This document shows, piece after piece, positions 59,634 to 61,781 of a DNA stretch of 64,000 bases. Under the pieces are notes generated by a model that saw nothing but the letters and a program-made list of their open reading frames with translations, was not told the origin of the DNA and searched no databases. The stretch is from Pedobacter nanyangensis (GTDB taxonomy: Bacteria; Bacteroidota; Bacteroidia; Sphingobacteriales; Sphingobacteriaceae), in assembly GCF_003313505.1 (NCBI RefSeq), contig NZ_QMHO01000002.1:377976-441975 (forward strand). Direction: 5' to 3'. Both the position numbers and the translations under genes were made by a program. Position 1 is the first letter of the stretch. Each line of letters begins with the position of its first letter.

Positions 59634-60572
59634 TTAATTTGAATTAAAATACTGCTTTTCAACCAAATCAATTGCCCTATTTTTAACCAAATTCTCATTA
59701 TCTATTGCTTCAACCCAGTTAATTTTAACTCCGTCTTTTTCCATTTTCCGGAAAAATGTCATTTGCCTTTTGGCAAATTGACAAATGGCAATGCCCAAAC
59801 GTTCTCTCAAGGTATCAAAACTGATTTCTTTTTTTAGGTACGAAACCACAAATTTATACTCTAAACCATAAAAAATCAATGTTTCCTCCCTAACCCCTTT
59901 GTTCAATAAATTTTGGACTTCCTCTACTAACCCATTGGAAAGGCGATCGTCTAACCTGGCTAAAATCTTGTTCCTTCGGATATCAACTTCGTTAAACAAA
60001 CCAATTACAAGTGGGTTTAAGGGCGTTTTTTTAGTTGCAGACAACGAATGATGGGTTAAGTATTCGGCAATTTCGATGGCTCTAACCAGTCGTTTGTGCG
60101 AACTGGTATCTGCCTGTTGTGTTAATTCGGTGGGGTATTTGTACAATTCGTGTTGAAGTTCTTGTTTGCTTAACAACCCAAGTTGCCCCCTTAAGTGGTT
60201 ATTCACAGGAACAGCCGTAAGTTCATGGTTTTGTAACAAGCTATGGATGTACATTCCGGTACCACCGCATAAAATTGGCAGTTTATTTGCGTTTTTCACT
60301 TTTTCAAAAGCTCCAAAAAAGTCTTGCTTAAAGGCATTTACCTGGTAATGTTCCCCGGCGGCTTTAATGTTGATCAAGTGATATGGTATTTTCTGCCCGT
60401 TTATTTCGTACTCGGAAAGGTCCTTACCCGTGCCAATATCCATATCTCTAAAAACCTGCCTACTATCAGCACTGATGATTTCACCGTTAAAAGTATGGGC
60501 CAATTGTACTGCCAGCTTAGTTTTGCCCACTGCGGTTGCTCCAAGTACAATCAACAAGTTTTTATCGGGCAT
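59634..60572 (-). CDS. miaA: tRNA dimethylallyltransferase
   Basis: Adds a dimethylallyl group to A37 of tRNAs that read codons starting with U. The start is the ATG giving MPDKNLLIVLGATAVGKTKL; it overlaps the end of the upstream gene by 11 bases. GATAVGKT is the P loop, SADSRQVFRDMDIGTGKD the substrate motif and LCGGTGMYIHSLL the family signature; GLFNEVDIRRNKILARLDDR lies in the C-terminal part. It has 312 residues. Its position inside an operon with a Hef-like protein and a DNA methyltransferase is unusual. Confidence 0.94.
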   Translation of the reverse strand: MPDKNLLIVLGATAVGKTKLAVQLAHTFNGEIISADSRQVFRDMDIGTGKDLSEYEINGQKIPYHLINIKAAGEHYQVNAFKQDFFGAFEKVKNANKLPILCGGTGMYIHSLLQNHELTAVPVNNHLRGQLGLLSKQELQHELYKYPTELTQQADTSSHKRLVRAIEIAEYLTHHSLSATKKTPLNPLVIGLFNEVDIRRNKILARLDDRLSNGLVEEVQNLLNKGVREETLIFYGLEYKFVVSYLKKEISFDTLRERLGIAICQFAKRQMTFFRKMEKDGVKINWVEAIDNENLVKNRAIDLVEKQYFNSN

Positions 60573-61413
60573 TGGTGTATAAATGATATTTGAGATTTCC
60601 AGTATTAAACACTTTAACCAGATCAACGCTGGTCAAAAAACTATCCAAATTTAATACATTTTGAGCTTTATAGGCCGCCATTATATTTTTTGGCAGGCGA
60701 TGCGCATAATGCCTTACCATGGTTTGGGTATCCACATAAAAAGTTACGGGCGTTGTATTTCCCGATAAGTGGAATCCAAGTTTATCATACCCCTTTCCTA
60801 ATGACCAGTCTCTATCTGCGTAGGTCATTAAATCATTTACATTCACCTGCTCCAAAAAGTGTGAAATTATTTTGCCCAGCCCACCGGCAACGGTTGTACC
60901 ATTTTGGGTAGCAAAACGTACCAATTCGGCCGATTTATAATGTGTACCCTTACTTTTCATCGGCCTAGATGCCGCAAAGCAAGCCACCGCTTTGAGCTCT
61001 CCATTAAACGTTAGCCCAAAATTGTATTTGGTTTTGACATATCCCTGTAGATGGTGCAAATCCAAAAAATCTTGGGCTACTTCTGCCCCAACTTCAGTAA
61101 TTTTCCCCTTACGTCCATGCAGGCTTTGGTTTAAGCCACAAAATGAATGTAACCTGCTAAGTACCTGCATTCTTTTGTTGGCCCATATATCTTCCCAAAG
61201 ATGTACCAATAAAATGCCTTTTTGTGCGTAAATTGCTTGTAGGGAAATAAGTTGTTGAGGTAAAAAAACAGCATTTAAGGGTAAAAGATTAACATATACC
61301 TGCCCTTTAATACTTACCACATAAAATGGATGTGTTTGTATTTCCTCTACAGCATGGTAGCTATTTTGTACGGTTAAAAAGAAATCTTCCTGAAATAACG
61401 GATTTAAACCCAC
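60562..61413 (-). CDS. Hef-type homing-endonuclease-like protein, probably nuclease-dead
   Basis: A 283-residue protein whose C-terminal two-thirds resemble the module found in phage Hef-like homing endonucleases: LHHLQGYVKTKYNFGLTFNG near 130, AELVRFATQNGTTVAGGLGK near 190, and TYADRDWSLGKGYDKLGF near 220. Before it, QAIYAQKGILLVHLWEDIW matches the end of the phage Vsr-like nuclease domain, but the acidic and histidine catalytic segment expected just upstream is absent; the region around residues 28-55 is plain beta strands. It starts with GTG inside the preceding gene (10-base overlap) and runs 11 bases into miaA. The family link comes from motif recall and needs a search; a function is not known. 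Confidence 0.65.
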   Translation of the reverse strand: MGLNPLFQEDFFLTVQNSYHAVEEIQTHPFYVVSIKGQVYVNLLPLNAVFLPQQLISLQAIYAQKGILLVHLWEDIWANKRMQVLSRLHSFCGLNQSLHGRKGKITEVGAEVAQDFLDLHHLQGYVKTKYNFGLTFNGELKAVACFAASRPMKSKGTHYKSAELVRFATQNGTTVAGGLGKIISHFLEQVNVNDLMTYADRDWSLGKGYDKLGFHLSGNTTPVTFYVDTQTMVRHYAHRLPKNIMAAYKAQNVLNLDSFLTSVDLVKVFNTGNLKYHLYTNAR

Positions 61414-61781
61414 TCGTTTTGCTTATAAATTTTGTAACCTTTATCCAAAGCGTCGGCGATGTGCTCCATCAGCAGATCATCAATTTTTTTGAGGTGAAAG
61501 CATGATTTTCCCTTGAGTAATTTCAACAAGTCAGGATGCACCATATCACGCGCTTCGGGATTGGTGTAAAGTAACATAAAATGAAGGGTTACATCGCTCT
61601 TGAGTACCTTTAAACCTGCGAAATAAATTTCCTTTCTTTCACGTCCCAGCAAGGTTACATTCTTTTCGCTCCATAGGTCATATTCTTGGTCTGAATTAAG
61701 TCTGGAGGTAAATCCCAATGCCTCATAAGGTTGCATCCCTGCTCTAACGGTTTGAAAAATTTCAATCAAATCTGTTTTCAT
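61404..61781 (-). CDS. DUF1801/YdhG-like protein
   Basis: A cytoplasmic protein of 125 residues. Its C-terminal part LKGKSCFHLKKIDDLLMEHI, then ADALDKGYKIY, together with FMLLYTNPEARDMVHPDLLK, matches the DUF1801 (YdhG-like) family as I know it, a small alpha/beta fold also called iron-chaperone-like. The reaction is unknown. It is the first gene of a four-gene minus-strand unit: its stop overlaps the GTG start of the Hef-like gene by 10 bases, so translation of the two is probably linked. Confidence 0.78.
   Translation of the reverse strand: MKTDLIEIFQTVRAGMQPYEALGFTSRLNSDQEYDLWSEKNVTLLGRERKEIYFAGLKVLKSDVTLHFMLLYTNPEARDMVHPDLLKLLKGKSCFHLKKIDDLLMEHIADALDKGYKIYKQNEWV

Follow-up and report, generated by a model that had tools for sequence, protein, structure and literature searches.

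What does a protein with the look of a phage homing endonuclease do when its gene overlaps a miaA gene? The question is raised by a reading frame of the window (the whole 64,000-nucleotide stretch of Pedobacter nanyangensis DNA analysed here), which an earlier note had described as a phage homing-endonuclease-like protein, probably catalytically dead, inside a miaA operon. We refer to the 283-residue product as MOML, a label coined here for this Mom-like protein. Its GTG is the sole in-frame start near the beginning of the frame, and the coordinates and motifs quoted in the earlier note were all found as stated (WED at residues 73-75, HLQGY at 121-125, ELVRF at 163-167, YADRDWS at 198-204 and YDKLGF at 209-214; Table 1). 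The 10- and 11-base overlaps with its neighbours were also borne out, the latter with MiaA started at the chosen ATG (60572); the first called start of that frame is a TTG at 60626. The upstream 125-residue ORF occupies the same place, 5′ of MOML, in most Pedobacter loci. MOML is a real gene under purifying selection (dN 0.018-0.142 vs. dS 0.30-2.18 in 9 of 11 pairs; dS was saturated in the remaining 2).

Table 1. Features of the MOML locus, in coordinates of the window
Feature	Position	Strand	Remarks
MOML CDS (Mom-like protein), 283 aa, GTG start	60562-61413	minus	
N-terminal domain, residues 1-95, EDxHD/Vsr (PD-(D/E)XK-like) nuclease fold, no catalytic residues	61129-61413	minus	
N42, place of the catalytic Glu	61288-61290	minus	residue in the window is N
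C-terminal domain, residues 100-283, Mom-family GNAT transferase domain	60565-61116	minus	
H121 (Mom H58)	61051-61053	minus	41/41 family rows; 15/16 Moms
E163-L-x-R166 (Mom E108-L-x-R111)	60916-60927	minus	41/41 family rows; 16/16 Moms
YADRDWS, residues 198-204; D200 (Mom D149)	60802-60822	minus	YAD in 41/41 family rows; [FY]AD in 16/16 Moms
Upstream ORF, 125 aa, no assigned function	61404-61781	minus	10-base overlap with MOML
miaA2, second MiaA paralogue, 312 aa from ATG	59634-60572	minus	11-base overlap with MOML

The window protein gave no Pfam match at E≤10, and a search of PDB sequences with this single protein returned nothing. Among the phage PHROGs profiles, phrog_3339 (‘homing endonuclease’) matched it with an E-value of 7.6e-47 over profile positions 324-534 of 536, and phrog_1384 (‘Mom-like DNA modification protein’) gave a weak match (E 0.0026). 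The predicted structure of the full protein had a pLDDT of 94.2. When residues 1-99 were modelled alone (pLDDT 86.9), the model aligned both with the catalytic domain of the homing endonuclease I-Bth0305I (3r3p; Z 10.1, 92 residues, 2.6 Å) and with 3hrl (Z 10.3, 88 residues, 2.4 Å). Foldseek matches of the same model were weak (E 0.094 for 3r3p; the best, a tRNA splicing endonuclease, had E 0.0048), and a Pfam scan of MOML N-terminal domains yielded stray single-member matches only. The suggested kinship with phage Vsr/EDxHD homing endonucleases is upheld by the phrog_3339 and I-Bth0305I matches.

This domain lacks the catalytic D, E and WH. Of 51 viral rows, 49 hold E in the column of the catalytic Glu, where bacterial rows mostly have H (20/41) or N (15/41). 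The nuclease motif D..E..NG..WH was present in 45 of 55 viral ORFs (from 47 loci and four phage records) vs. none of 110 ORFs of bacterial loci (L001-L110); four of the ten viral ORFs without the strict motif, L147 among them, are shorter than 330 aa. Since the catalytic residues have been lost though the fold is kept, the MOML nuclease is, as judged from the alignment, almost certainly dead. A Vsr fold without acidic residues, which the earlier note had named as a check, is what the models and alignment column 42 revealed.

The C-terminal module had been taken for the Hef-type endonuclease part, and proved instead to be a Mom-family GNAT domain. Phage Mu Mom (8bv8) was the top PDB match of the full model in Foldseek (E 7.4e-7) and aligned with it over 141 residues (VIA Z 14.3, 2.5 Å), protein N-acetyltransferases tying with it in Z. 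Profile-profile comparison of MOML and viral rows with 16 Moms, four of which are Mu Mom and close kin, gave a probability of 97.4 (E 9.7e-12). Mu Mom alone against the 41-row alignment A1 reached a probability of 0.6%; the signal came with the viral relatives and the diverse Moms. Eight residues (H121, E163, L164, R166, A199, D200, Y209 and F214) are invariant in all 41 bacterial rows, and their Mom counterparts (H58, E108, L109, R111, A148, D149, Y159 and F164) are kept in 13-16 of the 16 Moms. At the level of single sequences the match to Mom is weak: phrog_1384 matched 21 of 41 at E≤0.001 and the Pfam Mom family (PF25680) 12 of 41 at E≤0.1 (best 8.4e-5), the window protein not being among these 12. 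Mom has reportedly been studied by mutagenesis. The counterpart of Mom S124 falls at 176 or near 180, depending on the alignment, residue 180 being S in 26 of 41 rows and G in the window; S124A is an inactive Mom mutant, according to the title of PDB entry 8bv8. The XF1762 family matched MOML weakly (E 0.032), and a search for XF1762 matched none of 60 genomes, but none of 14 controls either. Five CnrR chains from a PDB profile search (E≥1.3) were taken as chance matches. The transferase looks alive because the Mom signature is invariant in all aligned members; it is probably active, and since the domain keeps this signature, MOML as a whole is probably not inert. The verdict ‘probably catalytically dead’ thus held for the nuclease half and probably fails for the whole protein.

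The same combination of domains exists in phages. Phage nuclease-Mom proteins matched the MOML model over nearly its full length (TM to query 0.73-0.83, ranks 1-19), and hhalign comparisons gave E-values of 1.1e-30 and 9.7e-36. In a tree of 41 bacterial and 44 viral rows over 210 shared columns, the bacteria fell on one side (UFboot 100, branch 0.42); viral ORFs shorter than 330 aa, including L147, were excluded from this tree and from the Mom-comparison alignment. The tree is unrooted, and is consistent with a single domestication giving rise to bacterial MOML. Domesticated descent from a phage EDxHD-nuclease/Mom fusion would be part of what we regard as the best explanation, which, taken as a whole, has somewhat more in its favour than against it.

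Two contigs labelled viral merit description. One, of 236 kb (IMGVR_UViG_3300022697_000186), carries at least eight relatives with a Mom-like domain (L155, L160, L166, L169, L173, L178, L186 and L192). At the end of the other is an ORF of 290 aa that belongs to the bacterial type of MOML (L147, 1-873, plus strand), perhaps a host stretch within a provirus call. We also considered a plasmid-borne element and rejected it, the search for plasmid carriage having given one distant match at 25% identity.

MOML was found once in the window's own genome and once in each of 35/35 other genomes of the same genus, vs. 1 of 23 taken from other genera. With the 41-row profile, and counting the window's genome, it occurred in 102 of 201 genomes (11/25 genera) of a family sample, in 44 of 395 genomes (19/196 genera, ten families) of a sample of the class Bacteroidia, and in 5 of 296 genomes of a phylum draw. 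Nearly all genomes had a single match; G517 had two broken pieces and G693 two partial matches. The best 80 of 127 relatives were mostly from Pedobacter, and also from Siphonobacter, Flexithrix, Larkinella, Runella and Bacteroidales MAGs. Given these counts, the near-universal single match and the range of named relatives, MOML is an established, yet patchy, cellular gene.

Is the link to miaA equally widespread? The search for orthologues next to miaA in Bacteroidota, proposed in the earlier note, found them: of 107 loci, mainly from Pedobacter, 86 had a miaA gene in the same orientation no more than 700 nt 3′ of MOML, and in 79 of these 86 the spacing was between -25 and +26. Three loci stood outside this count, two with an adjacent miaA (L033, L051) and one without (L095). 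A broader collection of 44 loci, spanning 27 genera, had miaA within 1.35 kb in 32 loci and 19 genera (the L249 contig ends 146 nt downstream; L115, with one gene between, was left out). An oxidoreductase gene separates the two in genera g25, g303, g313 and g314; the intervening gene in L241, L243, L244, L247 and L248, loci from several genera of the same bacterial family, is of the Gfo/Idh/MocA type, as assigned from a scan of L247. The genes 5′ of MOML vary (smpB; a nadD-like gene on the opposite strand; by eye, SDR and def), and because these upstream genes differ among lineages, the MOML-miaA pair stands out as the conserved core. The trees of the two proteins were congruent, with a Mantel r of 0.92 over 85 pairs (one of 86 was dropped for its length) and 0.84 over the 28 pairs from beyond Pedobacter and its close kin (five near-identical); 0/999 permutations reached either value. 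The claim of a fixed, domesticated gene is borne out.

Where MOML is unlinked from miaA, its neighbours (DHS-like, cdd, MutS, glycosyltransferase, transketolase-like and others, some identified by eye) had no common theme, and many have no RNA link. Pseudouridine synthase, RicT, QueE or SmpB genes occur near MOML in single lineages, too small a number to weigh. In Bacteroidales MAGs, MOML may lie 3′ of a deoxyhypusine-synthase-like gene (1,9-bis(guanidino)-5-aza-nonane synthase) and/or 5′ of a cytidine deaminase gene, as scanned in L091 (1487-3887) and seen by eye upstream in L056, L086 and L092 and downstream in L079 and L098.

The neighbour in the window is a MiaA by its score (TIGR00174, 183.3 bits; cut-off 148.65), and is not the ordinary one, which is encoded elsewhere in the genome (G000:C6) and is 31% identical to it. 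The description ‘inside a miaA operon’ was thus right about the adjacency, the adjacent gene being a second paralogue, a fact beyond the reach of a reading of the sequence alone. It belongs to a separate clade: 25 MiaA2 rows and 20 ordinary MiaA rows (one a duplicate) were cleanly split, with a support of 1.0 on a branch of 1.94. Both kinds have the P-loop, DSRQ and KRQxT motifs, and MiaA2 has GTGKD where ordinary MiaA has GTAKP. UniProt uses the names miaA1 and miaA2 in Bacteroides. Directly 3′ of miaA2 lies a gene for a Dam-family adenine methyltransferase (TIGR00571; 58494-59633, minus strand); elsewhere, it was seen at this place in near relatives only.

Co-occurrence of MOML with MiaA2 extends beyond adjacency. 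Among 79 genomes examined, MiaA2 (39-100% identical to that of the window) was found in 42 of 44 MOML-positive vs. 1 of 35 MOML-negative genomes, the latter not a random draw (Fisher p 8e-19, inflated by genome relatedness). Forty-one of the 42 genomes with both also kept an ordinary MiaA (27-35% identical). The two genes lie within 1.3 kb in 30 of the 42 and on different contigs in 12, two of which (G365 and G553) have one gene at or near a contig end, so that physical linkage is possible. In the family sample, 100 of 102 MOML-positive vs. 0 of 99 MOML-negative genomes had MiaA2 at E≤1e-42 (100/201 positive). In a search of 12 relatives without MOML, 6 returned a MiaA at E≤1e-30, always of 30-34% identity. 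Within genus g301, one genome carries both genes (G675) and another neither (G696). Of ten more genomes in which MOML is not close to miaA, eight had a MiaA2 (43-54% identical), matched in three MAGs as two segments of a single open frame; the other two, both MAGs, had only ordinary MiaA. MOML was thus seen without MiaA2, at the thresholds used, in G397 and G472 (class sample), G690 and G733 (family sample) and the MAGs G852 and G854; G397 had no MiaA of either kind at E≤1e-12. Conversely, G042 has MiaA2 and no MOML even at E≤1; beside its MiaA2 (L280; G042:C60:6450-7301) lie two small genes with the look, by eye, of a toxin-antitoxin system. MiaB matched in 201/201 family genomes, making a correlation with MOML impossible. 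In the window's genome (G000) and some relatives MiaB came in 4 pieces (best E ~1e-86), vs. 3 pieces (~1e-132) elsewhere, as if some genomes had a split MiaB or one with an insert.

The near restriction of MOML to genomes with a second MiaA points to an undescribed modification of RNA (or DNA). We favour, as a probable though far from secure reading, that the nuclease-dead and probably active MOML works with MiaA2 on the same RNA. The substrate of MiaA2 would be a tRNA, or another RNA, that ordinary MiaA leaves unserved, and an adenosine in it would be prenylated at N6; MOML would attach a group to this RNA, at the prenylated base or close to it, or hand the RNA to MiaA2. Their joint product would be an N6-modified adenosine that is so far undescribed, with tRNA as its likeliest location. 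We infer the transferase activity of MOML in this scheme, as well as its RNA substrate, base, donor and product.

MiaA acts at N6 of A37 in tRNA. Mom modifies N6 of DNA adenine, according to PMC7824862; both chemistries therefore act on adenine N6, and DNA is a possible substrate of MOML as well. That the known Mom target is DNA counts against the RNA reading. The favoured explanation is further weakened by the genomes that carry one gene of the pair without the other, the weak single-sequence match to Mom, the tie of other GNATs in Z, the ambiguous S124 counterpart, the varied neighbours of unlinked MOML and the broken copy in G517. The dead nuclease domain may serve in nucleic-acid binding, for which the Vsr-like domain of FASTKD4, non-cutting and RNA-binding according to PMC11879112, offers a precedent. 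The pI of the nuclease half (6.4) speaks against such a role; that of the whole protein is 9.2, and the Mom half, at 9.5, may carry most of the binding. A role in tRNA or DNA biology, as already suggested from the sequence, appears likely.

How do other explanations fare? MOML might modify adenines of host-chromosome DNA as Mu Mom does, for self-protection or regulation, with MiaA2 a passenger or itself moved to DNA. The known substrate of Mom (PMC7824862), the annotation of the phage relatives as DNA enzymes and the Dam-family gene 3′ in close relatives all fit this account; we nevertheless consider it unlikely, given the tight co-occurrence with MiaA2, also across different contigs, the limitation of the Dam gene to near relatives, and a PADLOC scan in which the window protein matched no defence model and the 41 members gave just two stray hits, each in a single member. 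On that scan, a defence gene as such was rejected. The dead nuclease fold, the basic protein and the co-occurrence would suit a MOML without transferase activity that brings RNA to MiaA2 as its specificity or chaperone subunit. A Mom signature invariant in 41/41 seems more than a pure scaffold would need, and we rate this explanation as rather improbable.

A free-standing homing gene, parked beside miaA2 and kept by selfish spread, would account for the ancestry common with homing endonucleases. It is already contradicted by the missing catalytic residues, a single match in almost every genome, trees congruent with MiaA2, purifying selection and a co-occurrence that persists where the genes are unlinked, and we give it hardly any credence. 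MOML accordingly does not appear to be mobile, to judge from its single copy in 35/35 genomes and its congruent tree.

Returning to a joint action of MOML and MiaA2 on RNA, one may more tentatively, and with rather more doubt than trust, propose that the pair forms a two-enzyme pathway for an undescribed, hypermodified adenosine of Bacteroidota tRNA, its N6 being prenylated and/or alkylated or acylated in the manner of Mom. As part of this tentative proposal, the pathway would have arisen when a phage DNA restriction/modification fusion was recruited to a role in translation. In a bolder form, MOML and MiaA2 would place an isoprenoid-type mark on DNA. A partial literature search gave no report of a Mom-like protein beside or with MiaA, or on the Bacteroidota miaA1/miaA2 pair, and an earlier mention of the family is possible; the published passages on Mom that were read mention neither this bacterial family, nor its dead nuclease, nor its partner. 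If our reading is right, a two-gene module for a new nucleic-acid modification is predicted in many Bacteroidota, these bacteria would have a reason for their two MiaA enzymes, and a phage nuclease-Mom fusion would have turned into a resident cellular gene.

MOML can be set beside four known systems. With the Mom family (Mu Mom; PF25680, phrog_1384, 8bv8) it has in common the GNAT/Mom fold and the H, ELxR, [FY]AD, Y, F signature; it differs in its extra N-terminal dead nuclease domain, its cellular residence and its tie to MiaA2, and its substrate is putative. REase-Mom fusions of jumbo phages are described in PMC7824862, and the phage EDxHD/Vsr homing endonucleases with a Mom domain (phrog_3339, phrog_559) show the same two-domain order in about their last 300 residues. 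These phage proteins have a longer N-terminus and mostly an intact D..E..NG..WH motif, whereas MOML has lost both. FASTK/RAP proteins such as FASTKD4 resemble MOML in a Vsr-like fold judged to be non-cutting, and bind RNA (PMC11879112); their architecture is otherwise different and has no GNAT domain. Finally, compared with MiaA (TIGR00174), MiaA2 retains the three shared motifs and forms a separate clade with GTGKD, not GTAKP.
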